From a virus: 63,465 bases of DNA. The translations under genes and the position numbers were made by a program. The notes below the pieces were generated by a model, which saw only the letters and a program-made list of their open reading frames with translations, searched no databases and was not told the origin of the DNA. The DNA lies in the IMG/VR virus record IMGVR_UViG_3300027593_000199, positions 1-63,465 of that record. One strand, given 5' to 3'. Of this stretch, positions 2,666 to 47,173 are shown piece by piece. Every line of letters begins with the position of its first letter. Position 1 is the first letter of the stretch.

Positions 2666-2893
2666 CTACCACTGACCTAGCCGGGCAGTATCAACATCTT
2701 TACCATAGTACTTCAACACACGCTTCAATGCCTTGACCAACTTCTTATTAGCTTTCACATCCTCATCATGCATCCAACTCTCACCACGTGAGTGCATAGC
2801 AAGATCATGTTTAGTGTTAACATACACATCGTGCAGATTGTCTATTGTGATGCAGTCAGCAGTCTCCCAAGATATCATCAATCGTTTATCCAT
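2666..2893 (-). CDS. Conserved phage hypothetical protein
   Basis: 75 aa. Two ATGs are possible; the second is TAATG-coupled to the beta-ketoacyl synthase gene and has GGAG at 8 nt, so it is preferred. The product has a C-terminal basic helix (ANKKLVKALKRVLKYYGK). Last gene before the terminator. Function unknown. Confidence 0.7.
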   Translation of the reverse strand: MDKRLMISWETADCITIDNLHDVYVNTKHDLAMHSRGESWMHDEDVKANKKLVKALKRVLKYYGKDVDTARLGQW

Positions 2894-4110
2894 TACCATT
2901 TCTCCAATATCATACTAGCGTTACGTCCACCAAAACCAAAACTGTTCTTCATTGCATACTTAATATCTACATCAATTGCCTTTGTTGGTAATATTAAATT
3001 AGAACCACCAATAGGATCAACTAGATTAGCATTACCAGGACTCTTACCAGTCTCCATTGCTAATAGTGTGTAGATCGTTTCAATCAATCCACAAGCACTC
3101 ATAGCATGACCAATCTGTCCTTTATTACTAACCACAACAACATCATGCTTAATTATCTTAGCAATGGCATTGTACTCTATTATATCACCAATTGGAGTAC
3201 TTGTTGCATGAGCATTAACATAATCAATATGTGAAGGATCAAGATCAGCATTCTTACAAGCAGTAAGCATACATTGGTAAGCTCCTTCACCCTCTGGATC
3301 TGGACTTGTGTCACTATCAAAGTTGGTAACGATACCACAACCCTCAATAGTAGCATACACTTTAGCATTACGCTTCAATGCTTTAACAAGTGGTTCAATA
3401 ATAATAGTAGCAGCACCTTCACCCATCACAAAACCATTACGAGATTTATCGAAAGGAGCACTGATACCTGTAGGACTTAAAGCTCCAAGTAAGTTGAACC
3501 AGTACATATCAAAAGCATCCGTTGTCCCATCTGTTGCACCAACAAGCATAGCATCTAAGTCTGGATTAGCTTTCAGATAAGCACATGCAGCATCGATTGA
3601 CACAATACCAGTAGCGCAAGCACTGACCATTGAATAGTTTGGTCCATTGAAACCAAACACAGCAGCAACCTGCGCAGCAGTGTGCTCACCACCAATGTTA
3701 AGAGACTTACGAGGACTGTATTTCTTACCTTGATTAAAAGCTGCTAGCATGTCAGACTTTACATATGTACCAGCTGCAAATGAACTAAAGACAACTCCAA
3801 CATTAACACTATCAATACCAGAATCATTCACAGCTTCATCGGCTGATATCAAACCTATTCTAGTAACAGGATCCCAATGTCTCCAATACTTTTCAAACTT
3901 AGGTTTATTTTCTGATTCTTCAGGTTGAGGACACTTACCAACTAAAGTGGTAGGTACTGCTTTGTGCGATTGAGGAAATAGCTGATCATCATACTCTGGC
4001 CAGCTGATTGGAACAATAGCACTCTTGCCTTCTAACAAAGCATAGAAACTAGTCACGGCATCTTTACCAAGACCATTATATAATCCAATACCTGTAATAG
4101 CAAAATGCAT
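2893..4110 (-). CDS. fabF: Beta-ketoacyl-ACP synthase (KAS II / FabF-like)
   Basis: 405 aa, full thiolase-fold KAS length. Active-site Cys165 lies in SACATG, His301 in NAHATST, and Lys330/His335 in SNKGQIGHAMSACG; the C-terminal NSFGFGGRNAS loop typical of KAS I/II is present. The family condenses malonyl-ACP with acyl-ACP in fatty-acid elongation in the cytosol. No ACP or other Fab enzyme is visible here, so it would have to use host partners and could shift chain length or unsaturation. It sits inside an early operon of small genes, TAATG-coupled on both sides. A full-length KAS is unusual for a phage. Ketosynthase of another pathway is the alternative. Confidence 0.93.
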   Translation of the reverse strand: MHFAITGIGLYNGLGKDAVTSFYALLEGKSAIVPISWPEYDDQLFPQSHKAVPTTLVGKCPQPEESENKPKFEKYWRHWDPVTRIGLISADEAVNDSGIDSVNVGVVFSSFAAGTYVKSDMLAAFNQGKKYSPRKSLNIGGEHTAAQVAAVFGFNGPNYSMVSACATGIVSIDAACAYLKANPDLDAMLVGATDGTTDAFDMYWFNLLGALSPTGISAPFDKSRNGFVMGEGAATIIIEPLVKALKRNAKVYATIEGCGIVTNFDSDTSPDPEGEGAYQCMLTACKNADLDPSHIDYVNAHATSTPIGDIIEYNAIAKIIKHDVVVVSNKGQIGHAMSACGLIETIYTLLAMETGKSPGNANLVDPIGGSNLILPTKAIDVDIKYAMKNSFGFGGRNASMILEKW

Positions 4111-33154: not shown

Positions 33155-34714
33155 TTATGTCCAAGCGTCGTACGATATTCTCTTCCAAGCACCATCACCG
33201 GCGCAGACATACAAGTAATCATTGTCGATAGCAAATTCTCCTTTGATACCTACTGCATCTGGTGCAGAAGGAGGAGTAGTTCTATACATAAATGCTGTGT
33301 TCTGTACCATGTTATCAGGGAACAGGATAGAACCATTTGCTCTAAATGTCCACTGTGATGCTCCAACAGTAACTATTAAGTTAGTATTGGATACAGATAC
33401 AGAGTTATTTACTGTACTATTAGACCATGATATTGATATACCGGTATTTGATCTGGTAGATACAGAAGTTGTATTGACTGTTGTATTAACCGTACTATTA
33501 CCAATTGAAATAGCAGTAGCAGTACTTGGAATAACAATAGTATTTGCTGGGAAGGTTGTAGTACCTGATCGATCAAACTTCCAGTCTACAGTTCCAAAGT
33601 CCGCAGACTTAACACTAACATAAGCACTGTTATTGGTTCTAACACCTACAATACTTGAGTGTAGTGCTGCACTTAAATCTTCTGCCTTAATCTCAACAAC
33701 ACCACCAGAGTATAATTCAACTGATGTATTGTTTATTGATTGTATATGTGTATTTGTACCAGGAAGATATATGTCACTAGGTACAGTAACTCTACCATTA
33801 GCTTGGGATAAACTTACTGTAAATCCATTACTAATTAACTGTCTTGCTGATCCAACAGATGCATTAGCGATATCAGTATTAAGGAAACCTGTAGCATTAA
33901 TGGTAAGCTCATTACCTACTTTAATAATACCAGCTGATGTTGTATTAGCAGTTCTAATATTTGCACTAAGCTGGAATGTGGTGTTACTCATTGCAAGTTG
34001 GTCACCAACTATTATAATACCAGGAGCTGTTGTGTTAGCAAAGTTAGTATTAACATTAAGTATTCCATTTGCAATAGCCATTGTATTACCGACTATAATA
34101 CTACCTGCTGAGTTAAAAGTTGCAATCGGGAGAGTAGCACTTAAATGACCACTAGCATTGATAGTCATGTTATTGCCAACTTTAACAATACCTTCTGATG
34201 TTGTATTGGCATATCTGAGATTTGCGCTCAGGAATCCTGTAGCATTAATAGATAACTGATCACCAACACCAACCTTACCAAGGACTGTTGTATTAGCAAT
34301 AAATACATTGGCACTGAGATATCCAGTAGCATTAATGGTAAGATTATTACCTACAGCAATGATACCAGCTGTAGAGTTTGATGCAGCTACTATATTAGCT
34401 ACTAAGAAGCCATTCTGATCAATTGCAAGTTGACTACCAACTTTAATAGTACCAAATGATGATGTGTTAGCTGCTCTAATATTAGCACTAAGAACACCAT
34501 CTACAGTGATAGCAAGCTGACTTCCAATCTTGACGATACCTGCATACGTTGTATTAGCATAGTCAGGAAAGGTAACCGTATCTCTAAACGTACTGACAGT
34601 CAACTTCCTTGTTGTCAACGTACCTGCAACGTTAGCAACAAGGACGAAGAAATCACTATTGTTTATAGTATTAGCGGTTGTTAACTCGCTGATCTTCTTG
34701 GCTCTATTACTCAT
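33155..34714 (-). CDS. Long tail fibre with eight 29-residue repeats
   Basis: 519 aa. Residues about 52-285 hold eight tandem repeats, unit roughly ANTTSAGIIKVGNELTINAT followed by GFLSANIR. The second half is another beta-rich stretch, ending with KGEFAIDNDYLYVCAGDGAW and KRISYDAW, a C-terminal module common in phage fibre and structural proteins. Extended, trimeric fibre predicted. The repeats could expand or shrink by recombination. Confidence 0.82.
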   Translation of the reverse strand: MSNRAKKISELTTANTINNSDFFVLVANVAGTLTTRKLTVSTFRDTVTFPDYANTTYAGIVKIGSQLAITVDGVLSANIRAANTSSFGTIKVGSQLAIDQNGFLVANIVAASNSTAGIIAVGNNLTINATGYLSANVFIANTTVLGKVGVGDQLSINATGFLSANLRYANTTSEGIVKVGNNMTINASGHLSATLPIATFNSAGSIIVGNTMAIANGILNVNTNFANTTAPGIIIVGDQLAMSNTTFQLSANIRTANTTSAGIIKVGNELTINATGFLNTDIANASVGSARQLISNGFTVSLSQANGRVTVPSDIYLPGTNTHIQSINNTSVELYSGGVVEIKAEDLSAALHSSIVGVRTNNSAYVSVKSADFGTVDWKFDRSGTTTFPANTIVIPSTATAISIGNSTVNTTVNTTSVSTRSNTGISISWSNSTVNNSVSVSNTNLIVTVGASQWTFRANGSILFPDNMVQNTAFMYRTTPPSAPDAVGIKGEFAIDNDYLYVCAGDGAWKRISYDAWT

Positions 34715-34720
34715 ATTTTA

Positions 34721-35578
34721 TTATGCGTCTGGTAAGTAAGCATCATCGGATGCATCGCTAGTGATTGAACCCATAGCTACTAATGTTTCATATTGAACAC
34801 GTCCAGCACGACCACCAGTACCTTCTGTTCTAATATTCCAACCAGCATGTGTAACACCTCTATTCTTTGCACCACCAACAACTACAACTGCTGTTGCTGT
34901 CTGACCAGTGATCGAGTGACCAGCTTGGGCAGTTGCTGCAGCGGATGTCAAGTTAATAGCAGGACCACCAGATGTAGTAGCTAATTGGATTGCTGTTGAG
35001 TTAGCAGTGATTACAAAGTATTGGGTTCCGCTAGCAAGACCACCAATAGCTGTATTAGCGGCTGCAACAGTGTAAGTTACGATGTCATTATTAACAAAGA
35101 ATGCTCTGTTAGAACCTAATGATATAAAACCATTTACTGTTGAGTTACCAACTGTGACTGCTGATGTATTACCTGCAAATGTCTGCGCAGCTGGAGCAGC
35201 AATAGAAGCGATTGGAGAAGCAGTGTAGCCTGTTCCGTTAGCTGTTACTGTAAATGCTGTGATTCTACCAGTTGCATCAGCAGTTGTATTAGCAGCCGCA
35301 TCGGCACCAGTGTTATTTCCTGAGAATGTAACAGCTGCATTACCACTATATCCTGAACCTGCGAAGGTTAAAGTACCAGAGATAATTGGACCAGCACTAA
35401 CACTCATCTCTGTCGTATCGACACCATACTGTCCAACAATCTGGCCAGCAATAAATGCATCGGCTGTTGTATTACCAAATAAAGCTGTTCTATTAGCAGT
35501 GTTTGGTGCTAGTTTAAATTGACCAGCAGCAGAAATTACCGAGTTTCCTGCAGCGTCTGTGTTTCCCCATAAAGGCAT
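34721..35578 (-). CDS. Conserved virion structural protein (MPLWGNTD family)
   Basis: 285 aa, beta-rich, Ala/Thr/Gly/Asn-rich. Starts MPLWGNTDAAGNSVISAAGQ and ends with TEGTGGRAGRVQYETLVAMG then SDASDDAYLPDA, both highly typical of a structural protein shared by marine T4-like phages. The middle resembles repeated beta domains. Behind a GATAAATA late promoter. Confidence 0.85.
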   Translation of the reverse strand: MPLWGNTDAAGNSVISAAGQFKLAPNTANRTALFGNTTADAFIAGQIVGQYGVDTTEMSVSAGPIISGTLTFAGSGYSGNAAVTFSGNNTGADAAANTTADATGRITAFTVTANGTGYTASPIASIAAPAAQTFAGNTSAVTVGNSTVNGFISLGSNRAFFVNNDIVTYTVAAANTAIGGLASGTQYFVITANSTAIQLATTSGGPAINLTSAAATAQAGHSITGQTATAVVVVGGAKNRGVTHAGWNIRTEGTGGRAGRVQYETLVAMGSITSDASDDAYLPDA

Positions 35579-35608: not shown

Positions 35609-35815
35609 TTATTTATCTTTGTTAGAATGTAGCATATCAGCATGAAAAGCAGAATGTCTATGTTCAATTAATGGTTCATCAACTACTCTTATCTTCTTCA
35701 TAGCCTGCTGCCTAGCCATGGATCGTATATCTTCCATGGTACGGACAGGTTCACCATCAGGATCTCTTACTACGGGATCACCCTGTATAATGATATTGGC
35801 AGCTGAAATTCCCAT
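35609..35815 (-). CDS. Hypothetical 68-aa virion-region protein
   Basis: 68 aa: MGISAANIIIQGDPVVRDPD then a charged helix (MEDIRSMARQQAMKKIRVVD) and a His-rich end. ATG coupled to the preceding stop. Upstream of a late promoter. Function unknown. Confidence 0.65.
   Translation of the reverse strand: MGISAANIIIQGDPVVRDPDGEPVRTMEDIRSMARQQAMKKIRVVDEPLIEHRHSAFHADMLHSNKDK
35610..35617 (-). promoter_or_regulatory. T4-type late promoter (GATAAATA)
   Basis: GATAAATA, one mismatch from TATAAATA, 32 nt upstream of the MPLWGNTD virion gene. Confidence 0.6.
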
Positions 35816-36585
35816 TACTTTCCTGTAATCATCTTGTGAACAGCCATAAGATTCTCATGTGACTTATGAATCTCATCATGGACATTCATTCTATGCTCTG
35901 GTTTCAATCTATCTGTAGCACTGAGAATAGTCTTTGCAACATGCTGAGGCACTGGATGCTTCTTACCATTCTTGAATGTTACATGGAATGGTTTCATATC
36001 CGAATCAGACGCTTTCTTTAACTGGACGTGAATATGTTGATCCGCTTCCATACCGTTATCCTCACCGTGCTCTTCATGATCTTCGGAATCATCATTACTA
36101 CGAATAGACATCTTCTTAGGACGACCACGGGCTTCATCAAGACCAACTTCTTCCTTGACTTCGCTCTGCATATAGTCAGCCACTGTGCTAATATAGTCAG
36201 CGGATAAAGTAATTTTATTCTGTACCCATTCAGCCATGTTGGTATTATCTTTTAGCATGTCATGGACTTGTTGAGCATTGGCCATGATAGAACGTAACTG
36301 ACTCTTAGCCATGTCACCTTCGTAGTCATATTCTCTAGGATCTTTGGCTTCTGTGAATCTAAGTAGTTTTGTTTCTGAACTCTTCGTCTGAGCATTCTTT
36401 GCTGTAGCTGCAATCTGCTTTAGACGCTTTTTGTTCTCTGTCTCATATCCCATGGCTTCCTTGATACCATCGTAAGGATTACCACCCATGAGTTTACGAT
36501 GAGCCTTGTAGCGTTTACCACTGCTACTTAGTTTAAAATCGGAAGAGGCTACAACCCCTTCCTGTATTTGTTTAAGTGTTTTCAT
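35815..36585 (-). CDS. Internal head protein candidate with capsid-targeting peptide
   Basis: 256 aa. N-terminus MKTLKQIQE followed by GVVASS fits a capsid-targeting peptide cut after Ile-Gln-Glu. The middle has YDYEGDMAKSQLRSIMANAQ and MAEWVQNKITLSADYISTVA, a helical domain I recall in T4-like phages, and the C-terminus is His/Lys-rich. TAATG-like coupling with the next genes in one late operon. Likely a DNA-associated internal or core protein. Confidence 0.75.
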   Translation of the reverse strand: MKTLKQIQEGVVASSDFKLSSSGKRYKAHRKLMGGNPYDGIKEAMGYETENKKRLKQIAATAKNAQTKSSETKLLRFTEAKDPREYDYEGDMAKSQLRSIMANAQQVHDMLKDNTNMAEWVQNKITLSADYISTVADYMQSEVKEEVGLDEARGRPKKMSIRSNDDSEDHEEHGEDNGMEADQHIHVQLKKASDSDMKPFHVTFKNGKKHPVPQHVAKTILSATDRLKPEHRMNVHDEIHKSHENLMAVHKMITGK

Positions 36586-38528
36586 TAGAAGTCACTCCCT
36601 TGCATACCTTGACCACTAAAGCTATTTGATCTCTGTAGCGGTTTAGCTGCTGCAGCTTTCTTTGCCTTCTCTTCAGGAGTCTCACCAGCAGGAGCTGGAG
36701 CTGGAGTAGCTGCTGGAGCTGGAGCTGGAACAGCTGCAGCCATTGGCTTATTAGCAGTGGCCACTGGAGCTGGTGCAGGAGCAGGTGTTGCTGCAGGAGC
36801 TGCTGGTTTAGCTGCAGGAGCAGGTGCAGCTGGCTTCTCAGACTGAGAAGCCATGGCTGCATTAGATACACCTGATGTGTCACCCTGAACAAAAGCAGCT
36901 TGTTCTGGTGTTTTAGTGTCGATTGTACCTACATTGAAACCAAGACCCTGCCTAGCTCTTTCTCTCATTTTAGCTATCTGTGCATTCATTTTAGCATCTG
37001 CAGCTCTTGCCATCTCAATATCTCTTAATTCATTAACTGCCTTCTTACGCTTGGAGTGCATGTGCATTTCGGAAACAAGAATCTCTAGTTCAGCTGTTGG
37101 AACATACTTTTCAATACCATGTTCAAACATGACATCATACCAAGCAATGTGACCATCTTGATCTGGATCAGCATGTTGAGTAGTAACAGTACGGCCTTCA
37201 CCAAACGATTCACTCTTTACATGAATAGCACATTGATGCTCGTAGCTGTTGCCTGGAGTGTCTTTATTCTCTTTAACAGATGTTTTTTTCTTGTTGTAGA
37301 GACCAAGTTTCATTTTCATCTTAGAAGACATCTCTTCTTCAACATCTATCGCCTTTTTACCCATCTTAACAGGGCTATTGCTTTTAACTACTCCACGAGC
37401 AACAAGAATATCACCATGAGTGATGCGTTTTGGATCTCCATGCTGTGCTGCCAGATCTTGCTCTTTATCATTACGAGGAATAGTACCTTCTTTCTTCTTC
37501 ATAACTTCCATGATATCAGCAACTAGATCTTTTGATACACCAAAGGTCTTATTAACATAAGATTCTTCTGCAGTAACTTTACCGTTAACATTACCTTTGC
37601 CTCTGATCTTATTGATAAAATCACCAACCGAAGCATATGAACGATTCTCTGTATCTGGACCACCCATCACACCTTTTTGACGAACATATGTTCTACCATC
37701 TGTATCAGTTCTTGTATTACCTTTACCATATTTGGTATCAAGTTCTTTGTCTGCAGGACGACCAGTACTGTAGTCTTTATCGTTAGCCTTAGGTGTTTCA
37801 GCTTTTGGCTCTTCTGCTTTTGGTGTCTCTACTTTAGCAGCTTGTGGCTTGGACTCTTCATCGTCACTATTGTCATTGCCAAATGCTTTATTAACTGTAT
37901 CACGAGTACTTGCTATTTGTTTAGCCATCGTATCTGCAGGCAGAATTGAAGCTCTCTTCGATGGTGTAGCCATTGCTCGAGCTCCACGATCATCTGGTTC
38001 TGCGTCTGGTTTTGATGACATCGAAGCCATTGCTCGTGCTCCACGGTCATCCGGCTCTGCACTTGTTTCTTTACCTTGAGCTTTTGCTAATGATGAAGCA
38101 TCCATTGCTGCTGGCTTTGGAGCATCGTTAGATGTAGGAGCTGCAGCAGCTGGAGTTTCAGGTTTCTTAGCTGTAGTAGCGGCAGCAGTAGGCGCTTTGG
38201 TTGTACGTGGTTTAGGTATTGAGGCTGGAGAAGCTTTGTCACCTACAGGCTTAATATCAGAATCAGGAGTCTTCTCGTTACCTGGTTTAACACCATTATC
38301 ACGAACTGCAACAGGAGCTGTTTGAGTTACATCATGTTTAGAATTCCACTTATCTTTCGAAACAGTCTTAGGTAAAGTATTTTGTTTACCCTGTGAGTAG
38401 CTACGCCATGATTGAGCTGCACCGCTCATCTTTGATCTGGCTTCAGCATCAACATCATCAGAGCTAGTTTGGGCTCCCCTACTACCCATTTCCATAATAT
38501 TTTTGATTGATTCGTAAAGTGACTTCAT
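36585..38528 (-). CDS. Large internal head protein candidate
   Basis: 647 aa. N-terminus MKSLYESIKNIME followed by MGSRG fits a capsid-targeting peptide cut after Ile-Met-Glu. The rest is mostly low complexity: AKQIAST, PKAEEPKAETPKAND and a C-terminal Ala/Pro run (KPAAPAATPAPAPAPVATA), with repeated AEPDDRGARAMA units. A folded segment is GNSYEHQCAIHVKSESFGEG..ADPDQDGHIAWYDVMFEHGI. Disordered linkers are typical of packaged proteins. Confidence 0.7.
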   Translation of the reverse strand: MKSLYESIKNIMEMGSRGAQTSSDDVDAEARSKMSGAAQSWRSYSQGKQNTLPKTVSKDKWNSKHDVTQTAPVAVRDNGVKPGNEKTPDSDIKPVGDKASPASIPKPRTTKAPTAAATTAKKPETPAAAAPTSNDAPKPAAMDASSLAKAQGKETSAEPDDRGARAMASMSSKPDAEPDDRGARAMATPSKRASILPADTMAKQIASTRDTVNKAFGNDNSDDEESKPQAAKVETPKAEEPKAETPKANDKDYSTGRPADKELDTKYGKGNTRTDTDGRTYVRQKGVMGGPDTENRSYASVGDFINKIRGKGNVNGKVTAEESYVNKTFGVSKDLVADIMEVMKKKEGTIPRNDKEQDLAAQHGDPKRITHGDILVARGVVKSNSPVKMGKKAIDVEEEMSSKMKMKLGLYNKKKTSVKENKDTPGNSYEHQCAIHVKSESFGEGRTVTTQHADPDQDGHIAWYDVMFEHGIEKYVPTAELEILVSEMHMHSKRKKAVNELRDIEMARAADAKMNAQIAKMRERARQGLGFNVGTIDTKTPEQAAFVQGDTSGVSNAAMASQSEKPAAPAPAAKPAAPAATPAPAPAPVATANKPMAAAVPAPAPAATPAPAPAGETPEEKAKKAAAAKPLQRSNSFSGQGMQGSDF

Positions 38529-38551
38529 TTTATTTCCTTTTTTAATTAATG

Positions 38552-39127
38552 TTAGTCTGCATCGATAATTTTAAGTTTTCTTTGTGCTTTTAGATTTCTG
38601 GATAAGACGAACTTAGAGCTATCGATGTCGCTATCCTTTGGTCCAATATTTGGAGATGTTGGGGGTGTTTGTAACCTCTTCATTATTTCTGGTGTTATCT
38701 TATCTACTGGTCCTGAGTCAGATTGTTCGTATGATTTAATATCATCCAAGTGGCCATCAAGGTATCCGAGTTTATCACTAACACCAATCCGATCACCTAG
38801 CATACGAATCTTCTCAACAATTTGACTTGCTTCTTTCGAGTCATCACTTGTTGATCGTTCTGCAGCCAGTGTATGCTTTTTGATACCAAACAACTGATCA
38901 TGAAGAATAGCCATCTTCTCTGCCAAATCAGGATTAGCATCACGTGGTAGGTTTACAAATAACATCTGTGCCTTTGGGCACATTTCAAAATTCTTGGTAC
39001 GATAGGTGCCAGCAGCAATTTGATCTGATTGATCTTTCTCTATCTTACTACGCTGCTCAAACAAACCCTTCCTGGATTTGCGAACAACATCCCTAATTCT
39101 GTTTTCTAGTGTAACGTACTTTTTCAT
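38552..39127 (-). CDS. Conserved phage hypothetical protein
   Basis: 191 aa from the ATG that overlaps the dps stop (ATGA). Helical N-terminus (KKYVTLENRIRDVVRKSRKG) then SDQIAAGTYRTKNFEMCPKA. The C-terminal part has NIGPKDSDIDSSKFVLSRNL. Function unknown; belongs to the late operon. Confidence 0.68.
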   Translation of the reverse strand: MKKYVTLENRIRDVVRKSRKGLFEQRSKIEKDQSDQIAAGTYRTKNFEMCPKAQMLFVNLPRDANPDLAEKMAILHDQLFGIKKHTLAAERSTSDDSKEASQIVEKIRMLGDRIGVSDKLGYLDGHLDDIKSYEQSDSGPVDKITPEIMKRLQTPPTSPNIGPKDSDIDSSKFVLSRNLKAQRKLKIIDAD

Positions 39128-39570
39128 TGTCTTCTCTTTAGTAGAGAGTTTAACATCCATGCATGCTTCTTATGGGCGTCATATCTATCTTGTATGAAAT
39201 TAGAAAGTCCAATCTCATCAAATTCTTCTGCCAATTCGTATGCTTCTCTTAGAGAGGCTAACACTATCTGATTATCACCTGATAACGTATTAAACATCTC
39301 TCCAGCTGATGGAGCACCTGTACTATCGGCGATGCTTGATAATTCTTTAAATCTTGAAAATGATCCTGGAGCATATTCCCCAAGAGCTCTAATCTCTTCT
39401 GCAATCTTATCAACTGCTCCGTAGACTTCTTCATATAGGTTACCAAGGAATTCATGGTACTGAGGAAAGTCCGGACCTTCTACATTCCAATGAAACTGAT
39501 GTGCTTTCAAATAGAAAGCAAAGCTATCAGCAAGTACAACTTTCATCTTTTCTGTTAATTGTTCTCTCAT
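39124..39570 (-). CDS. dps: Dps/ferritin-like protein
   Basis: 148 aa, the usual Dps length. Core signature HQFHWNVEGPDFPQYHEFLG then AVDKIAEEIRALG contains His27, His39, Asp54 and Glu58 of the ferroxidase site; the residue matching E. coli Asp67 is Gly43, so the site may be altered. Dps dodecamers bind DNA and oxidise iron. Here it is flanked by capsid-targeted genes, so it might protect DNA in the virion or host; it has no targeting peptide itself. The second ATG (TAATG) is preferred. Confidence 0.88.
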   Translation of the reverse strand: MREQLTEKMKVVLADSFAFYLKAHQFHWNVEGPDFPQYHEFLGNLYEEVYGAVDKIAEEIRALGEYAPGSFSRFKELSSIADSTGAPSAGEMFNTLSGDNQIVLASLREAYELAEEFDEIGLSNFIQDRYDAHKKHAWMLNSLLKRRQ

Positions 39571-39839
39571 TACCATGCCTTACATGACCAATATCTTGGC
39601 GTTGTTTTATCAGATGCAGTATCGCAATTATGACGAGCTCTAAAGCTCTTGCGACGTGCAGGTATATGTTTCTTGATAGAAAGATTCTTATCTCCGAAGT
39701 TTACCTTCTGAGCCTTACCATCTCCATCAGGATCAACAAATACTTTAGACTTCTTAACATCACCAGCCATAGGCTTGTTAAGAGGTACTTTCTTACCTTG
39801 AAACTCAGCTTCTGTGATAAACTCTAAAAAACTTAGCAT
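39570..39839 (-). CDS. Capsid-targeted basic protein, DUF5872-like
   Basis: 89 aa. N-terminus MLSFLEFITE followed by AEFQG fits a capsid-targeting peptide cut after Ile-Thr-Glu. The mature part is basic and ends KSFRARHNCDTASDKTTPRY and WSCKAW, a Cys/Trp domain I recall in other phage virion proteins. Probably a small DNA-binding internal protein. Confidence 0.75.
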   Translation of the reverse strand: MLSFLEFITEAEFQGKKVPLNKPMAGDVKKSKVFVDPDGDGKAQKVNFGDKNLSIKKHIPARRKSFRARHNCDTASDKTTPRYWSCKAW

Positions 39840-41998
39840 TGGTTATTTGCCTTTCTTTTGGCACGTAACATTCTTGCAAACGCTTCAACAGCTTCACCTG
39901 GAGTATCTTTTTTATATTTATTTGTTAGTTTATTTGTGCCTTCATCACCAGCACCATCTTCTTCCATGACAGAAGGATGTAACTGGAACCCACCTTGTAT
40001 CTTCATACCTAAATCAGCTGCAGTATAAACTCCACTATAACCTGACGCACGATCAACTATGAAACTCTCATCAACAGACTCTTTTCTAACACCAGTTGCT
40101 TGCTTCTTTGTCTTTACTCTATCCTGATAAGACTTCTCATCAAACGGTCTATAATCAGCTGCGGCTGCTACAACAGTATTTGCTGCTGATTCAAGTGATT
40201 TTCTTGCTGCAGCACCAGCATTAACAATCTTATCTGCTAATGAAGGTTCAGAACCTTCTGTATACAGATGACCGTACTTCTTTTCATGATCCTCACGCTG
40301 CTTCTTCTGCTTAGCAATTAGATTAAGTAAGCGGTCAGCACCTTTATCAGCATCGTACCCATGTTTCTTTAAACTATCTTTAAATTTATCACGTGGTGAC
40401 TTTGGTTGTACTGCTTCCTGAGCATCAATGAAGTTTTGTTTTGTTGGAGCACCTTCTGAACCAGGCTTTCTCATCTTCTCACCAGATCCACGAGCAATAC
40501 GCTTACGCTTAGCGTGAATGTTATCCCACAGTCCAGCTTCTGCTAAATGAGAGTTAACTCTCTGCATTGCAAACTGATGTGCTGTGGCATTATTTCTACC
40601 ATCATAGTCAGCTAGACCTTGTTCAAAAATATCTTTGACTTCTTCAAAAGTAACTCCATACTTTTCTGCTTTCTTAGCAAGAGCAGTATTAGCCTTCTCT
40701 TGTAAATATGCTCCGTGATCCCATTCTCTATGAGATACAATGGTAGTAGCTGCGTTCGGAGTCTTTGTCTTGTATGTTTGAGGAATAATAATAGAAGAGG
40801 ATGTATTAGCAGTAGGAGTCTGCTTAGCTGGCATTGAACCTACTTTGGTGTAGGTTGCTATCTGCGACTTACCTTTGTTCTTTCTATTAAAGTCACCAAT
40901 CTTCTGATTAACAGTCTTCTTGATGTCACCAAGAGCATTAGCTTTGTCTTGATCAGCCTTCTGTTGATCTTTTGGATTCAAAGACTGCTTTGCTTTTGCT
41001 ATTGAAATCTTTCCTAACTCAGTCTTTTGTTTAGACTGGATGACAGCCTGCTTTTGAAGTTCTTTTTGATTCTTAGATAGCTCCGGAGCTTTAGTGCTAC
41101 CAGATGACTTAGAATCTGATTCAGGAGGTTTTCCTATTGTTGATAGTTTCTTAGCAGCAAGTCCAGCGCCAATCAGCGTAGAACCAAGAGCTCCTCTGGG
41201 AGTTGACATGGTATGAGCTAAAGCACCAGCTGCCAATCCTGCCTTAGCTATGTTACCAGCTACACGGAAAGGAGCACCTGCTATAGACTTCAAGTTTTGG
41301 CCAATAGTGGCCTCATACATTGAGAAGAAGTTGTTTAGATCTTCAACGGTAAGCTGTTCACCAATTAAATTACTATAAATTGGAATATATTCTGAATTGA
41401 TATTTCTCGCAGCACTGTATACACCTTTTGTGGATCTACCTGTCTGAACCGCATACAATCTCTTCTGCTCACCTTTTCTAACTGTTGGCATCATTCTACG
41501 AGCCATGTTTCTAATCTGAGCTTCACGACCCTTCAAACGGTTATCAATATTAATCTTTTCTGCAGCAGATAACGAATTATATTTTACACCGCGTGCACCA
41601 GCAATCCTTCTTCTGAGATTCTGTTTAGCCATTCTCATAGCTCTCTGCTTCAACTTTTCGTTCGATGCAAGTCTAGTTCTAAGAATCTTACGCTTCATCT
41701 TCATCTTTGGCATTCTACGTCTTAGAGCCATAGCACGCTTACGACGCTGAATAAGATTTACAGTGCGTTCAATTAGAGTTTGTTCTGTCTGAAACTTCGT
41801 TGGTTTTTCTTCTGGATTAACGACAATTTTATCAAGTCTGCTACCAGTCAACGAAGCTAATCCCTGCTGAGCACGCAATTGTTGCTGCTGCTGTTGTATT
41901 TGCTCAGGAGTAAGAGGAGCTGGTTGCGCAGGCGCAACTCCAGCTGGAGGTGGGGGTGGTGGCAAGGCTTGCTCGCCGAATTCTTTAAATGTAATCAT
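39833..41998 (-). CDS. Large Arg/Lys-rich internal protein candidate
   Basis: 721 aa. N-terminus MITFKEFGE followed by QALPPP fits a capsid-targeting peptide. Residues about 80-190 are strongly basic (RRRMPKMKMKRKILRTRLAS, MAKQNLRRRIAGARGVKYNS), a domain widely seen in T4-like phages that should bind DNA. Then low-complexity helical regions. TATAAATA promoter upstream. Probably a packaged DNA-binding protein. Confidence 0.75.
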   Translation of the reverse strand: MITFKEFGEQALPPPPPPAGVAPAQPAPLTPEQIQQQQQQLRAQQGLASLTGSRLDKIVVNPEEKPTKFQTEQTLIERTVNLIQRRKRAMALRRRMPKMKMKRKILRTRLASNEKLKQRAMRMAKQNLRRRIAGARGVKYNSLSAAEKINIDNRLKGREAQIRNMARRMMPTVRKGEQKRLYAVQTGRSTKGVYSAARNINSEYIPIYSNLIGEQLTVEDLNNFFSMYEATIGQNLKSIAGAPFRVAGNIAKAGLAAGALAHTMSTPRGALGSTLIGAGLAAKKLSTIGKPPESDSKSSGSTKAPELSKNQKELQKQAVIQSKQKTELGKISIAKAKQSLNPKDQQKADQDKANALGDIKKTVNQKIGDFNRKNKGKSQIATYTKVGSMPAKQTPTANTSSSIIIPQTYKTKTPNAATTIVSHREWDHGAYLQEKANTALAKKAEKYGVTFEEVKDIFEQGLADYDGRNNATAHQFAMQRVNSHLAEAGLWDNIHAKRKRIARGSGEKMRKPGSEGAPTKQNFIDAQEAVQPKSPRDKFKDSLKKHGYDADKGADRLLNLIAKQKKQREDHEKKYGHLYTEGSEPSLADKIVNAGAAARKSLESAANTVVAAAADYRPFDEKSYQDRVKTKKQATGVRKESVDESFIVDRASGYSGVYTAADLGMKIQGGFQLHPSVMEEDGAGDEGTNKLTNKYKKDTPGEAVEAFARMLRAKRKANNQC

Positions 41999-42042
41999 GT
42001 TTTCTTCCGCAGGTTTACCTAGGCCTTACTGCCGGGACTTAC

Positions 42043-42050
42043 TATTTATA
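42043..42050 (-). promoter_or_regulatory. T4-type late promoter (TATAAATA)
   Basis: Perfect TATAAATA followed by GTAAG, 45 nt upstream of the 39833-41998 gene. Confidence 0.75.
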
Positions 42051-42052
42051 AA

Positions 42053-42688
42053 TTACACTACTGCAAACAGCTTGTCGGCATGGCCGAAATGTCCTTGTAT
42101 ATTCTTATAACCAAGAGGGTCTAATAACATACTTATCTCTTTGCTAACCGTCTCCATCGTAATTACAGGTAGAAATCGAGAAATAGTATCCATTCCCCCA
42201 GCAATCACATTTGGTTCATATCCTTCACAGTCTAAACTAATATAATCACACTGCTCTAGTGCTAGTTGGTCAATCGTAAAAGTTGGGATAAAAGTATCGC
42301 CTTTATCAGATACTCTATGAGCACCAACGTTTCTCATATCATTTCTATACATACTTAATAATTTATTAGTCTCACCGAGTGCAGCATTGATCTTATAGAT
42401 ATTGTCTTTTTGACAATTGTGAGCTAGACAATGGAAGTTAAGTGGGTCTGGTTCGAATGTATATACTCGTTTGAACATATCAGAAAGTAGTCTTGGGTAC
42501 ATTCCACAATTACCACCAGCTTGAATACAAACCTCAAACTTCTTAACATGATTAAGGATTCCTTGCTTGAGTGGTCCCCAGTCAGATTTAGGACCATCCC
42601 ATGCTCCACTATCCTCTGTTATCCAGAGCCAGTTTCTTATTCCTTCTATTTCATCATCTTTAATAGATACTAACTCACTGTAATCCAC
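42053..42688 (-). CDS. FkbM-family methyltransferase
   Basis: 211 aa with GTG start overlapping the previous stop (TAGTG). SAM motif CIQAGGNCGMYPRLLSDMFK, acidic strand in TFEPD, and the FkbM signature YISLDCEGYEPNVIAGG. It lies inside the late operon between capsid-targeted genes but has no targeting peptide. Methylation of sugars on virion proteins or host glycans is possible. Second FkbM gene in this window. Confidence 0.87.
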   Translation of the reverse strand: MDYSELVSIKDDEIEGIRNWLWITEDSGAWDGPKSDWGPLKQGILNHVKKFEVCIQAGGNCGMYPRLLSDMFKRVYTFEPDPLNFHCLAHNCQKDNIYKINAALGETNKLLSMYRNDMRNVGAHRVSDKGDTFIPTFTIDQLALEQCDYISLDCEGYEPNVIAGGMDTISRFLPVITMETVSKEISMLLDPLGYKNIQGHFGHADKLFAVV

Positions 42689-43296
42689 TATTCAACTCCC
42701 ATTCCAGATCTAACGTCTTTGTATATTTCTCTCGAGTGTGATTCGTTCTTCTTGATCTTACTTGGAAGACCAGCTTTGAATTTACCGTAGTTACCACCTG
42801 ATGCATGGTTACGCATATCTGTACCACTAACACCAGCTTTACGTTCACCAGTATTTGCTACAGAAATTGAATCAAAATGATACTCACCATGTGGCTTACC
42901 TTTCACTCCATTATACTTATGGAGTAAAGTCTTATACTCTTCTGCTCTATCACTACCACCAGCAATCACTAAATGCTTGGCACCGGTCTTAGCAATCTCT
43001 GCTGCATGATGCATAATAGTAGGGTGTGCTTTAGAAGCTGTAGAGATAGTTGTATTATCAAGATGTCCAAAAGCACGTTGTAGATGCTTTTGTTTTTGTT
43101 CTGGAGATAGTGGATTCTTCTTGGCATCATGAGATCCACTTGCTACTACGTGAAGCTGAGCATTATGTTTAGTTGCAAGATCATGAGCAGCATTTACATT
43201 CTCTTCATGACCACTGGTGATAGGATTCATTCTACCAAATAGTAGAACAGCGGACTTAGCCTTTTCTTCTAATAGAAAACTTATAAATGATTTCAT
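42688..43296 (-). CDS. Nucleotidyltransferase (NMNAT/cytidylyltransferase-like), capsid-targeted
   Basis: 202 aa. Begins MKSFISFLLE-EKAK, consistent with a capsid-targeting peptide (Leu-Leu-Glu). Catalytic GRMNPITSGH (His30 of the HxGH-type motif), ASGSHDAKKNPLSPEQK and the second motif VSGTDMR mark an adenylyl/cytidylyl transferase fold. Substrate unknown; NAD synthesis is one possibility, or activation of a nucleic-acid end. ATGA-coupled to its HAD neighbour. Confidence 0.82.
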   Translation of the reverse strand: MKSFISFLLEEKAKSAVLLFGRMNPITSGHEENVNAAHDLATKHNAQLHVVASGSHDAKKNPLSPEQKQKHLQRAFGHLDNTTISTASKAHPTIMHHAAEIAKTGAKHLVIAGGSDRAEEYKTLLHKYNGVKGKPHGEYHFDSISVANTGERKAGVSGTDMRNHASGGNYGKFKAGLPSKIKKNESHSREIYKDVRSGMGVE

Positions 43297-43904
43297 CTGC
43301 TTGTCGTCTTTGATATTCCATCGCCCTCAACATGGTGAGCATGGAATGATGTGTTTGGATGCTGATCCTTCAACCCTAAGAAGGAGTGCAGGTTTGTTTT
43401 ACTATCATCGTACATATGAACATCCTTATACTTATGCTTGGCAACATAACCATGAATCACTTTAGCTTTTTTCTCAGCAGGTAAAGTATCTTGATTTATA
43501 TTACCAGCTCTAATCACATGGATGTTCTTCATATTGATACCATGCTTCTTAAATGTATGTAAGAATTTATTCTTATTATCAAAGTTAGCACGTGCAGTGT
43601 TGAAGATAACATGATTGTGAGGATTAGCTGATACTCTCTTTAGGTGATTAACCATATTTGGCATCGGCTTTGATTCTTTATTAAACTTCTCAGCATTTCT
43701 AAACTCACCAAAGTCATAGCTATGACCTTTTGGAAGTTTGTGGTTATTAAACTCTTGATTACTCAAAGTCTTAACTACTTTACCTTGTGGATCTTTTACA
43801 TGGATCTGAGCCGTAGTGTGCATTAATGTATCGTCAATGTCAAAAATGTGAAGAGACTTCTTCTGCGTAGTACCTTCTGATATAAATTCTTTAAAGCCGA
43901 TCAT
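43293..43904 (-). CDS. HAD-superfamily phosphatase, capsid-targeted
   Basis: 203 aa. Begins MIGFKEFISE-GTTQ, a targeting peptide ending Ile-Ser-Glu. HAD motif I HIFDIDDTLM (Asp22, Asp24), motif II FNTARAN, and motif IV MYDDSKTN. The small cap-less layout resembles the 3'-phosphatase half of T4 polynucleotide kinase. It could remove 3' phosphates, with the ligase-like neighbour acting next. Substrate is inferred. Confidence 0.82.
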   Translation of the reverse strand: MIGFKEFISEGTTQKKSLHIFDIDDTLMHTTAQIHVKDPQGKVVKTLSNQEFNNHKLPKGHSYDFGEFRNAEKFNKESKPMPNMVNHLKRVSANPHNHVIFNTARANFDNKNKFLHTFKKHGINMKNIHVIRAGNINQDTLPAEKKAKVIHGYVAKHKYKDVHMYDDSKTNLHSFLGLKDQHPNTSFHAHHVEGDGISKTTSR

Positions 43905-45094
43905 TATTGTCTCGCTGCAAAGTTTTGTCTACTAAATTCTGCTCTATCAACAACCTTAGTTGGTCTATTATTTATTACTGCAACATATCCCTCTGGTTTA
44001 GAAGGCTGGCCATTAATTGTTGTATTGAACATAGGACTAGCTGCCATAGCATGATTATGCACATCCTTGGCCTGCTGTAGGTGATGATGAATTTGAAATA
44101 CTTTATCGATAGTATCAGAGTGACCTCTAAGAGTACCAAGTTGGTTATTCATTGCCAGAGTCTTACGATCAATAGCTCCTTGCGTCTTTACCTTGGCTAT
44201 TTCTTTTTGATGCTGACTTTGTACATGATCATATAGATCAGTAGCATTAGGAGTAGTGCCATCTCTAACTGTCTTGTTAATATATGTCTTAATATGATCT
44301 AGGTGAGGTTCCACCTTCTTGTAATCCTCTGGCTTCATACTTCTATGAAGCTCATCTGCCTGAGCCATGTGTTCTTGAAAGTCTGCCTGACGAGCGGGGT
44401 TGTAATCTGCCTTCGTCGAATCAAACTTATTGTTAATTACATGCACATCCGGATGTTCATTAAAGTGTGAAAGATCAGGATCGTAGTCTGCTTTCATTGT
44501 TTCAAAGTTACCACCCTTGTACCCAGTATGAACTGCAATACCAAATTGAGATTGAGCTACTTTCTGACCTTCTTCTGAATTAGCAGGTGCATGATACTCA
44601 ACTAGGTTTGGTTTAAAGCTATGAACTTTACCATTAGTATTTACATCACCGTGTGGATTGGTATCAGAGTTGATACCAGCATGCATTACATCACCCTGAA
44701 ATATTCCTGTCTTAGGAGTTACCTTTGGGAGATGATATAGTGCAAGATTTAACTTGTTGACAAGACCTGGAGCATGTCCATGATTCTTTTGAACATCATC
44801 GTAATCATAATTTAACTTAGGCTCTTTGTTGAAAGCTGATTTGGTAGCAACAAAGAACTGACCTGTTGCTGGATGATGACCAAATACAATAGAAGGACTT
44901 CCATCCATCTTTTCATACAAAGCTGCACCACCCTTTTGACCTGTTAGTGTTTTATGTACTGCATTCAATGTATTCTTTGCATGCTGATATCCTTCAGCAC
45001 CAGCATTAAGTACATGATCTTCTGCATGCTCAAGGTGAGTCAGCTTCTCTTCGTTAGCAGCTGATTCTTTCAGCAATGTGAATATATGACGCAT
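43904..45094 (-). CDS. Ligase/nucleotidyltransferase-like protein (KxDG), capsid-targeted
   Basis: 396 aa. N-terminus MRHIFTLLKE-SAAN fits a targeting peptide cut after Leu-Lys-Glu. Motif I of covalent nucleotidyltransferases is ALYEKMDGSPSIVFG (nucleophile Lys62), GIFQGDVMH resembles motif III, VEYHAP sits downstream and PEGYVAVINNRPTKVVDR resembles motif V. This is the pattern of RNA/DNA ligases. TAATG-like coupling to both enzyme-like neighbours. No OB-fold domain recognised, so a ligase-related but not proven activity. Confidence 0.75.
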   Translation of the reverse strand: MRHIFTLLKESAANEEKLTHLEHAEDHVLNAGAEGYQHAKNTLNAVHKTLTGQKGGAALYEKMDGSPSIVFGHHPATGQFFVATKSAFNKEPKLNYDYDDVQKNHGHAPGLVNKLNLALYHLPKVTPKTGIFQGDVMHAGINSDTNPHGDVNTNGKVHSFKPNLVEYHAPANSEEGQKVAQSQFGIAVHTGYKGGNFETMKADYDPDLSHFNEHPDVHVINNKFDSTKADYNPARQADFQEHMAQADELHRSMKPEDYKKVEPHLDHIKTYINKTVRDGTTPNATDLYDHVQSQHQKEIAKVKTQGAIDRKTLAMNNQLGTLRGHSDTIDKVFQIHHHLQQAKDVHNHAMAASPMFNTTINGQPSKPEGYVAVINNRPTKVVDRAEFSRQNFAARQ

Positions 45095-46060
45095 TTAGTG
45101 TCCTAAGGTCTTTTTAAATGATTCTAGATGCTCATCATTATCAAGGTTTACATGGCTTGGAGCAAGACCTGCTTTACCTGCAGGTTGGAACATTACTGTA
45201 CGATGGGATGGGTTGTCGGTCTTTTGACGTACAGTCCACTTTCCTTTTCCAGACATTCTTGGAAGACCATGGCCTGTAACATCTTTACTACCGACTCTAT
45301 ATGTACCGTGACCTTCTCCAACTTGTAGTACATGAACTCCGTGATCTTTTAAATATGATTCAGCTGGACCTAAGTTTGAATGGTCTTTATAAACATTCTG
45401 TGCTTTACCTTTTGCTGACTTCTTTATCTGACCTTCTTTATCAGGATTGTGGTGAGTATTGAGATGATCTATAATTCCAGCATCTTCAATTTCTTTAGCA
45501 TATCTAGGCCTTAGTTGTTTTGCCTTGTCCGGAATATGCCAACCTCCTTTTTTTGGATCGTGGTGGATTGTCAATTGGCCAAAAGCTGCCTTAGTGTTGA
45601 GCTTGACTTCACCAGAATGAACTGTACCAATAATCGAACCCTGATGTACTTCTTTTTTCTTTTTGTTTAGAATAGGCACATCAGTACCAGCAGAAGATCC
45701 TGCTGGCTTATGTCCTTCTGGAACAAGACCATGCTGCTTAAATCGGTTGAAGGTGTGCTCTTCATATTCATGACCTTTGTTAACGACCTTTGTTCCAGGT
45801 TTATTCAACTTACTCAAAGGCACCCTCATCTTCTCACTAGATCCAACTTTTGATACAGTGGCTGAATGATTGCCATCTTCTTCGTGGTGTGCATGAAGAA
45901 CTACAGACTCCCCTGAACCAGCAAGAGTATGAGTTCCTTGTTCGGAATGTTTAGATCCACCAGGTAGATATGGTTTAATGTAACTATCAACATGCCTGTT
46001 AACTTTAAGACCAGATCCTGCAATAGTTGCTTCTTTTAAGAAAGTTATAAATGTTTTCAT
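45095..46060 (-). CDS. PD-(D/E)XK-like nuclease candidate, capsid-targeted
   Basis: 321 aa. N-terminus MKTFITFLKE-ATIAG, nearly the T4 internal-protein signal. Restriction-nuclease-like core: EYEEHTFNRFKQHG (Glu100/101), SSAGTDVPIL (Asp127), then HSGEVKLNTKAAFGQLTI with Glu151-Val-Lys153. Lys- and His-rich overall. First gene of the late operon behind a CATAAATA promoter. Predicted to cut nucleic acid; capsid delivery would bring it into the host with the DNA. Confidence 0.7.
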   Translation of the reverse strand: MKTFITFLKEATIAGSGLKVNRHVDSYIKPYLPGGSKHSEQGTHTLAGSGESVVLHAHHEEDGNHSATVSKVGSSEKMRVPLSKLNKPGTKVVNKGHEYEEHTFNRFKQHGLVPEGHKPAGSSAGTDVPILNKKKKEVHQGSIIGTVHSGEVKLNTKAAFGQLTIHHDPKKGGWHIPDKAKQLRPRYAKEIEDAGIIDHLNTHHNPDKEGQIKKSAKGKAQNVYKDHSNLGPAESYLKDHGVHVLQVGEGHGTYRVGSKDVTGHGLPRMSGKGKWTVRQKTDNPSHRTVMFQPAGKAGLAPSHVNLDNDEHLESFKKTLGH

Positions 46061-46105
46061 TCGGTTACCAATCGTCGTCGTTGAGTTATATTCACAATCT
46101 ATGAT

Positions 46106-46113
46106 TATTTATG
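46106..46113 (-). promoter_or_regulatory. T4-type late promoter (CATAAATA)
   Basis: CATAAATA, one mismatch from TATAAATA, 46 nt before the PD-(D/E)XK-like gene and just after a terminator. Confidence 0.6.
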
Positions 46114-46122
46114 TCATAATAT

Positions 46123-46152
46123 AATACGAAGAAACCCACCGAAGTGGGTTTC
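46123..46152 (-). terminator. Rho-independent terminator with UUCG loop
   Basis: 9-bp stem GAAACCCAC/GTGGGTTTC with TTCG loop and T-rich 3' side on the minus strand. Ends the 46175-46570 transcript. Confidence 0.85.
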
Positions 46153-46174
46153 CTGATCTCATGAAGCTTCTTCT

Positions 46175-46570
46175 TTAATCGTCTAAACTTAGGTGCTTCA
46201 AACCTGAAGTAGCCTGCTTTAGTACTTTAGCATGAACCTCTGGAGGAAGAGTAGGATGTGCTTGCTTCAAATCTCTCTTAATATCCTTTGCGGTAGGATC
46301 AAGGTTTCTCTTGCTAGCTGGATTAGAAACAAAGTTAATTTTATGACCATCCATCTTACCGTGAAACTTGATATTACCTGGATCTTCATTGTGATGAGTC
46401 ATGGTTAAATGGCTACTACCACTATTGTGAAGAACTCTATGAGTTATATCTCCATCACTACTGAAACGAACACTACCTTCTTTAGCAGCCTCTTCTAAAG
46501 ATCTCATCCCAATGGTTTTAGTCTTCTTTTCGTGTATTGAAATGTACTGTGAGTACTTATCGATTGACAT
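46175..46570 (-). CDS. Hypothetical late protein
   Basis: 131 aa from the ATG with AAGGAG upstream; a TTG fifteen nt earlier overlaps that site. Soluble, His/Lys-rich (HLTMTHHNEDPGNIKFHGKM) with a helical C-terminus. Its own TATAAATA promoter lies upstream and a terminator downstream, so it forms a single-gene late unit. No capsid-targeting peptide. Function unknown. Confidence 0.68.
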   Translation of the reverse strand: MSIDKYSQYISIHEKKTKTIGMRSLEEAAKEGSVRFSSDGDITHRVLHNSGSSHLTMTHHNEDPGNIKFHGKMDGHKINFVSNPASKRNLDPTAKDIKRDLKQAHPTLPPEVHAKVLKQATSGLKHLSLDD

Positions 46571-46608
46571 TCTTTTCTCCTTCAAATGCGACTTATTCAG
46601 TAATATAC

Positions 46609-46616
46609 TATTTATA
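46609..46616 (-). promoter_or_regulatory. T4-type late promoter (TATAAATA)
   Basis: Perfect TATAAATA followed by GTATATT, 39 nt before the 46175-46570 start. Confidence 0.72.
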
Positions 46617-46618
46617 AG

Positions 46619-47173
46619 TTAGAAAATTGCGTCCGCTACACCCAAATCTACACATTCCTGCGCAGTTAACCAAACATCTGATGGTGGCAGCAGCTTTCGC
46701 TTAATCACCTTCTCATCCATTGAACAGCTATCTTTTACAATATCCAGCATACGCTGTTTAATATACTTCGTCTCTTTTTCATATGCCTTAGCATCATGCT
46801 CTTTACCTTCATAATAGGTAGAGAACTGGTGGCACATAACGCTTGTGTTTTTAGTAACTCTACGACGACCTTTGGTACCAGTAATGAATATCAAGAATGC
46901 AGCACTCATTAGTGAGCCTACACCAATTGTTGCAACAGGTATCTTACTAGCCTTGATCATATCAATCAAACCAAAAGCACTATAAAGATCCCCACCAGGA
47001 CTATTAATTACAAGAGTAAGTTCTTTACGTTTACCTTCGCAATTTTCAGCCATAATCCATCTAATACAATCACCTATGTTATCATCGTTAATTTCACTAG
47101 AGAGATAAAATGTGCCACTCTCATATAGTACCATGTCGATACTATCCAATACATTTGAAGCTTCACTAGTCAT
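46619..47173 (-). CDS. clpP: ClpP-like serine protease
   Basis: 184 aa; AGGA precedes the ATG at 47173, and the longer frame would reach into the preceding gene. ClpP fold with LVINSPGGDLYSAFGLIDMI, a Ser in the GVGSLMSAAFLIF loop, His in MCHQFSTYYEG and Asp in PPSDVWLTAQECVDLG. A proteolytic core that would need an unfoldase such as host ClpX/A. Could process host or virion proteins; it is not the T4 gp21 protease type. Confidence 0.88.
   Translation of the reverse strand: MTSEASNVLDSIDMVLYESGTFYLSSEINDDNIGDCIRWIMAENCEGKRKELTLVINSPGGDLYSAFGLIDMIKASKIPVATIGVGSLMSAAFLIFITGTKGRRRVTKNTSVMCHQFSTYYEGKEHDAKAYEKETKYIKQRMLDIVKDSCSMDEKVIKRKLLPPSDVWLTAQECVDLGVADAIF

Follow-up and report, generated by a model that had tools for sequence, protein, structure and literature searches.

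In bacteriophage T4, the short N-terminal peptide of the internal proteins serves two purposes: residues 4 and 7 target the protein, and residues 8 and 10 direct its processing (PMC9026906). Studies of cyanophage virions have repeatedly found NMNAT-like enzymes and kinases, and the choice between cargo and contamination has been left undecided (PMC10665884, PMC9602691). Here, we describe an array of 11 genes on the minus strand of a 63,465-base virus record, IMGVR_UViG_3300027593_000199 (the window, at its full length), which was compared with fetched environmental contigs (L-numbered) and named phages. Genes are named after the coordinate of their stop-codon end. A sequence-only reading of this DNA had assigned a T4-like capsid-targeting peptide to eight products of the array. 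The shared peptide is real, on fewer proteins than claimed. The best explanation as a whole, and a very probable one, is that the window belongs to a T4-like, Kyanoviridae-like phage and that the array is its head-cargo locus. What appears to be new, within the open-licence literature searched, is not the mechanism, known from T4, but its use with a swappable enzyme cassette outside the T-even phages; the searches turned up no report of the targeting peptide for marine T4-like phages, cyanophages included.

A loose signature of the peptide, in which [hydrophobic]-x-E follows two hydrophobic residues three apart, was sought in 1,403 open reading frames (ORFs) from 85 sources, namely the window and 84 environmental relatives. 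It occurred in 124 of them, against 5.6 expected when residues 2–16 were shuffled and a maximum of 12 in 100 shuffles. This signature had been shaped by the window and T4, and therefore a stricter test was made with a position matrix. Its training set comprised 104 peptides of environmental contigs and left out the UvsX family, the window, and the close relatives of the window; T4 and phage S-CREM2 were also unseen. The matrix replaced a strict T4-style regular expression, because the latter gave a p of only 0.02 for S-CREM2 and also matched UvsX-type helices. A matrix score of at least 12 was reached by 4 of the 110 window genes, compared with 0.007 expected from shuffled N-termini, and all four sit among the 11 genes of the array: 39570 (21.1), 45095 (16.4), 42688 (15.9), and 43293 (15.4). 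The fifth-ranked window gene scores 1.9, and UvsX (1.9) is separated from the peptides (above 15). The same four proteins show the T4-type layout of a roughly 10-residue N-terminal peptide with hydrophobic residues at 4 and 7 followed by [LI]-x-E, and the consensus of the clear cargo is 9–10 residues long and reads M-x-x-[FY]-x-x-[FY]-[LI]-x-E. The matrix, which never saw T4, gives its IPII and IPIII (MKTYQEFIAEA) a score of 13.2. The sequence-only reading had quoted that start for IPI, wrongly, as the T4 record gives it to IPII/IPIII and IPI begins MKTFKEFTSTTTPVSTITEA; the targeting principle holds all the same, with residues 4 and 7 for targeting and 8 and 10 for processing.

All eight ORFs of the earlier list exist on the minus strand where it placed them, its quoted N-termini are correct (Table 1), and the mature parts of the tagged proteins are unrelated, as it stated. 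The peptide is clear in the four proteins above and is supported by family in a fifth, 43904, which scores −5.4 and belongs to DUF6267; an alignment of 62 proteins of this family has E10 in at least 90% of them, and the matrix gives scores of 8 or more to 53 of 78 homologues. Plausible half-matches are seen in 39833 (−19.7), whose start MITFKEF is similar to MKTFKEF, the targeting half of T4 IPI, but lacks [LI]-x-E, and in 35815 (−2.7), whose homologues have LIAE-A at residues 9–12 and then Y, like the start of T4 gp22. The eighth protein, 36585, was dropped from the set; it scores −17, and its sole close homologue reads MKSLYESIKNIMEGG. The genes said to lack the peptide do lack it: no Dps homologue (0/13) reaches a score of 8, the FkbM gene is without a peptide in the window and in relative L005, and the same applies to 38552 and its three homologues.

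The large protein 39833 has two further features. Its residues 485–526 (GLWDNIHAKRKRIARGSGEKMRKPGSEGAP) are about 50–83% identical to short proteins of T7-like cyanophages and of Pelagibacter and Roseobacter podoviruses, a motif that is widespread in unrelated phages and is found here within a T4-like protein of 721 residues. Residues 109–181 form a basic domain common to T4-like phages of Sinorhizobium, and it is listed together with HTVC008M gp142. Apparently the same domain is a separate gene in C48C1 (L015 19227-19598), starting MLSFKQFVSE, a candidate tag.

Packaging of the tagged proteins is supported through the virions of relatives. Phage S-CREM2 has 219 annotated proteins, 52 of them detected in virions (PMC10665884 Table 3). 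The five that score highest with the matrix were all detected (Fisher p = 6.5e-4, or 0.0025 when restricted to proteins of 78–760 residues), and no undetected protein scores as high as 6. They are a cytidylyltransferase (MKNFSSFLTEA), an APH-like kinase (start VKRFDAFLTEE), ORF136 (MQTFSMFFSED), ORF13 (MKDLHSFLTEQ), and an S-adenosylmethionine (SAM) hydrolase (MKDFDSFLEEF). One of two predicted cargos of S-SCSM1, an NMNAT starting MKSFLQFLKEA, is flagged as a virion protein (PMC9602691), and over both phages six of seven are detected (p = 3.1e-4). S-SM1, S-CREM2, and S-SCSM1 all have homologues of 42688 among their virion proteins. A kinase reported from S-CRM01 virions starts MISFDQFLSEK, and P-SSM2 T4-GC190, whose family was detected in S-SM1 virions (PMC3037559), starts MKSFSQFLTET; these two are an illustration and not a test, because they were chosen for families reported in virions. 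As a packaging signal on unrelated cargo, the peptide is thus well supported by the recovery of IPII/IPIII and by the S-CREM2 virions, though not for eight proteins.

Other virion-related starts were observed in these relatives. S-CREM2 ORF12 is annotated as Cas9 and occurs in virions. It shows RFASFMAEA at residue 18, and despite the annotation the PHROG that matches it best has no assigned function. Together with S-CRM01 g128 (L109 7422-7973), ORF12 (L016 7704-10313) has a conserved start SRWxxWSxG followed by an internal FASFMAEA or LDSFIKEA at about residues 18–25. In S-SCSM1, a 106-residue protein starting MKTFKQFMSES (L113 44215-44535) lies undetected between two virion proteins and is a predicted cargo.

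The peptide behaves as a module. A scan of related phage genomes, which had been suggested as a check, found it before mature parts that fall into about 30 unrelated groups. Where DUF6267 and cytidylyltransferase genes are separate, both are tagged in 19 of 43 loci; fused DUF6267-cytidylyltransferases with a full start have a single, N-terminal tag, and their junction is untagged. Close relatives show the replacement of a cargo allele directly. Three of them (L005, L006, and L008) align with the window at 82–91% DNA identity up to 45105 and again from 46622, with no alignment in between. The homologue of 45095 that fills this gap has only 37–38% protein identity and keeps its tag (MKTFKRYIIE, MKTFKNYIIE), which in L008 reads MKSFKNYLFE provided that the downstream start is used. 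In L005, an extra tagged gene (MKYSTFLFEA) is inserted beside Dps. The variable stretch also holds, at 46175-46585 of the window, a gene for a protein of about 136 residues with no family matches and no homologues in the fetched relatives; this region is replaced even in L007, which has the same 45095 allele. At the edge of the cassette lies a ClpP-type protease gene (46619-47173, E 2e-31).

Each of the four long relatives covering the head genes has the prohead protease gp21, which HTVC008M, S-CREM2, and S-SCSM1 also encode. The signature recurs in the major capsid protein: gp23 of T4, S-CREM2, S-SCSM1, and three environmental relatives has L-x-E at the expected place. In the three named phages, the string is [FL]-L-x-E-A (FLTE-A in T4, LLTE-A in S-CREM2, and FLAE-A in S-SCSM1), the same string that ends the targeting peptide, and gp23 of HTVC008M reads FLGE-I. 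In the 39570 family, hydrophobic-x-E stands directly before the AE[YF]QGKKVxLN start in all six other members with that exact start, at positions ranging from residue 11 to residue 86. It is kept before this start wherever it is located, as expected for a cut site. In L103, a 98-residue protein with the tag-like start MLTFKEFLLCEG (1205-1501) is encoded directly before gp21, in the position of a core protein.

The surroundings of the array are those of a T4-like phage. The DNA polymerase of the window is about 50% identical to polymerases of marine cyanophages, and the order DNA polymerase, UvsX, gp41 helicase, array is common to Pelagibacter phage HTVC008M, cyanophage P-RSM6, and Stenotrophomonas phage DLP_6. 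A megablast of the array against phages gave no match; in tblastn against phages, 45095 had no match and 43293 had one weak match. The array also adjoins tail-fibre-like genes (33155-35578). Elsewhere, the window encodes a beta-ketoacyl synthase (2893-4110), a phage-borne gene with both domains matched (E 2e-33 and 1e-29).

Table 1. Features of the array and its surroundings. Families are from Pfam and PHROGs; within peptides, a hyphen follows the predicted end.
Feature	Position	Strand	Remarks
Weak candidate, 256 aa	35815..36585	-	MKTLKQIQE-G at 36559-36585
Low-complexity protein, 647 aa	36585..38528	-	MKSLYESIKNIME-M, MKSLYESIKNIME at 38490-38528; peptide unsupported
Protein of 202 aa, no peptide	38552..39160	-	
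Dps/ferritin-like, no peptide	39124..39576	-	PF00210 E 5e-25
Small protein bearing a capsid-targeting sequence, 89 aa	39570..39839	-	MLSFLEFITE-AEFQGKK, peptide at 39810-39839
Multidomain protein, 721 aa	39833..41998	-	MITFKEFGE-Q, peptide at 41972-41998; partial match
T4-late-promoter-like TATAAATA	42043..42050	-	Intergenic, 45 bases upstream of 39833-41998
FkbM methyltransferase, no peptide	42053..42688	-	PF05050 E 2e-11
Cytidylyltransferase / NMNAT-like, 202 aa	42688..43296	-	MKSFISFLLE-E, peptide at 43267-43296; phrog_3041 E 5e-45
HAD-family phosphatase, polynucleotide-kinase-phosphatase-like, 203 aa	43293..43904	-	MIGFKEFISE-G, peptide at 43875-43904; phrog_415 polynucleotide kinase E 8e-9
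DUF6267 protein, 396 aa	43904..45094	-	MRHIFTLLKE-S, peptide at 45065-45094; PF19782 E 4e-90
Protein bearing a capsid-targeting sequence, 321 aa	45095..46060	-	MKTFITFLKE-A, peptide at 46031-46060; putatively PD-(D/E)XK nuclease-like
Late-promoter-like ATAAATA	46106..46112	-	46 bases upstream of 45095-46060
Variable cassette; close relatives have another cargo allele but retain the peptide	45106..46621		L005, L006, L008 alignments
T4-late-promoter-like TATAAATA	46609..46616	-	24 bases upstream of 46175, upstream of the array

The promoter-like sites fit late transcription of the array and are suggestive only. Four of the five minus-strand copies of TATAAATA lie in intergenic DNA, which makes up 3.4% of the window; across the whole window there are 6 copies against 5.9 expected by chance, so only the intergenic placement is notable, and ATAAATA is overall not above chance in the window.

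Conserved residues give some indication of what the cargo may do. In DUF6267 (43904), K62-x-D64-G65, E368-G369, and K380 are invariant in 62 proteins, and the order of KxDG, EG, and a late lysine, as read from the sequence, is that of motifs I, IV, and V of ligases and capping enzymes. The AlphaFold2 model of 43904 has a mean confidence (pLDDT) of 93.5, and its best hits in the Protein Data Bank (PDB) are DNA ligases, which are weak and below significance (E 0.02, probability 0.77). The protein is therefore described here as a putative ligase-like KxDG nucleotidyltransferase. In 45095, E100, D127, and E151-x-K153 are invariant in 10 homologues; the model places a helix at 95–109 and strands at 128–131 and 147–153, which fits E...D...E-x-K on an alpha-beta-beta core, and the protein is related to P-SSM2 T4-GC188, which has the same motif (hhalign 93%, E 3e-7). 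A Foldseek search with this model gave no confident PDB match, and for this reason 45095 is called nuclease-like and not a member of PD-(D/E)XK; a nuclease role is suggested by its residues. PDB sequence searches with the 45095 and DUF6267 families gave nothing meaningful. The peptide is of low confidence and detached in both models, with pLDDT below 50 at residues 1–18 of 45095 and 1–13 of 43904. In 43293, the FDIDDTL motif can be read directly. One hypothesis for the set as a whole is the repair of damaged DNA or RNA, or early restoration of nicotinamide adenine dinucleotide (NAD).

Several points weigh against a cleaved head-targeting peptide. Within families, the tag is patchy, with scores below 8 in 25 of 78 DUF6267 and 23 of 51 cytidylyltransferase homologues. 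The sequence-only reading had made the absence of a gp21-like protease count against itself; this absence does not extend to the relatives, and in the 63-kb fragment, where no head genes were recognised, gp21, gp22, and gp23 were not found. A PF03420 profile search of the window record gave no match, but the model was also silent on controls and is hence uninformative. The gp23 of relative L108 is without a clear L-x-E site. The exact cut site is uncertain, because the residue after the glutamate is often another E and not A, G, or S (28 of the 104 training peptides). Cleavage after the peptide is what we infer. The virion evidence comes from relatives of the window virus, S-SCSM1 alone reaches no significance (1 of 2 detected, p 0.31), and the authors of the virion proteomes allow for co-purification.

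The resemblance might be accidental, if late T4-like proteins merely tended to start with ordinary amphipathic helices. UvsX proteins, which start MSFLxxxxKEI, do match the loose pattern in 9 of 25 cases, and half of the eight proteins originally listed score low. Such an account is very improbable, as it conflicts with the excess over every shuffle and with the separation of UvsX by the independent matrix, and it is largely refuted by the prediction of S-CREM2 virion content. Equally slim is the chance that the peptide descends from a single duplicated protein family. Fusions link some families, and phrog_455 joins DUF6267 with the cytidylyltransferase. However, the roughly 30 mature groups differ in fold (HAD, nucleotidyltransferase, nuclease-like) and have no detectable homology across families, the peptides share a pattern and not a sequence, and homologues gain and lose them.

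Other explanations accept the peptide as a signal and change its purpose. It could be a docking tag for the baseplate, the tail, or the host membrane, an idea that draws on the neighbouring tail-fibre-like genes and on the fact that the published proteomes are of whole virions. This is improbable, given a design identical to the T4 IPII/IPIII head signal and a cleavage signature in common with the head protein gp23. A more serious alternative, although still an unlikely one, is that the proteins are targeted to the prohead core and act there as core, scaffold, or DNA condenser instead of being delivered as effectors. T4 IPIII influences head morphogenesis (PMC9026906), several of the cargos are small and basic, and 35815 resembles the start of gp22. 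On the other hand, the cargos retain enzyme motifs (KxDG, DxDxT, cytidylyltransferase), and their swapping between near-identical genomes suggests host-facing selection.

Delivery of head cargo is the preferred reading, and we consider it highly likely that enzymes enter the prohead by means of a T4-type capsid-targeting sequence, that gp21 removes this sequence, and that the enzymes are then, probably, ejected with the DNA. During prohead assembly, the aromatic and hydrophobic half of the peptide would bind the scaffold core, and an unrelated enzyme would therefore be enclosed. Cleavage by gp21 after [LI]-x-E would release the enzyme within the head, and the freed enzyme would enter the next host together with the DNA. 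The predicted cargo is mostly concerned with nucleic-acid and nucleotide chemistry (a nuclease-like protein, a ligase-like nucleotidyltransferase, a HAD phosphatase, and a cytidylyltransferase/NMNAT-like enzyme, along with small proteins), and its role would most likely be to protect or repair nucleic acid and the pools of nucleotides and NAD at an early stage. Observed are the peptide itself, its statistics, the range of unrelated cargo on which it recurs, its retention when the cargo is swapped, and its presence on virion proteins of relatives; core binding, cleavage at this site, ejection, and the role of the enzymes are inferred. A broader and more tentative proposal, which we hold at somewhat less than even chances, is that Kyanoviridae-like T4 phages possess a general head-cargo system. 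In it, unrelated enzymes would gain and lose a 10-residue tag in a hypervariable locus after gp41, making up a pre-packed kit (nuclease, ligase-like, phosphatase, and NMNAT-like enzymes here, SAM hydrolase and kinase in S-CREM2) that acts before phage gene expression, probably to counter nucleic-acid-damaging or NAD-draining host defences. A short peptide that can be searched for and that predicts virion enzymes of cyanophages would provide a testable rule for telling cargo from contamination. It yields candidate injected enzymes across very abundant aquatic phages and could be used as a tag to bring chosen proteins into other T4-like heads.

Among the closest known systems are T4 IPI, IPII, and IPIII, whose N-terminal propeptide is likewise hydrophobic and acidic, spans about 10 residues, and places aromatic residues at positions 4 and 7 and [LI]-x-E at 8–10. 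Divergent mature parts, gp21 (here in the relatives), and late expression, which is likely for the array, are common to both. The T4 cargos are small basic proteins of an Escherichia coli phage, whereas those of the window are enzymes of 200–400 residues in an aquatic lineage, and unlike the T4 internal proteins they are encoded in a syntenic block after gp41. The ejection proteins of phiKZ and SPN3US travel in the head too, and a gp21-type protease cleaves their propeptides after x-x-E (PMC9026906). They differ in their cleavage motif, S/A-x-E, and the likeness is one of description. The Dar anti-restriction proteins of phage P1 are not known to have such a short peptide. Like the proposed cargo, they are packaged in the head and co-ejected, and one is processed by a protease (PMC12810830). 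A further close parallel is offered by the cytidylyltransferase/NMNAT enzymes and kinases of Kyanoviridae virions (S-SM1, S-CREM2, S-SCSM1, and S-CRM01), which include homologous cargo (T4-GC190), were found in purified virions, and begin with the same peptide (MKNFSSFLTEA, MKSFLQFLKEA, and MISFDQFLSEK); the window array is without their kinase and SAM hydrolase. The papers on these virions do not say how such proteins would be packaged and allow for contamination (PMC10665884, PMC9602691); the peptide would supply a packaging mechanism.

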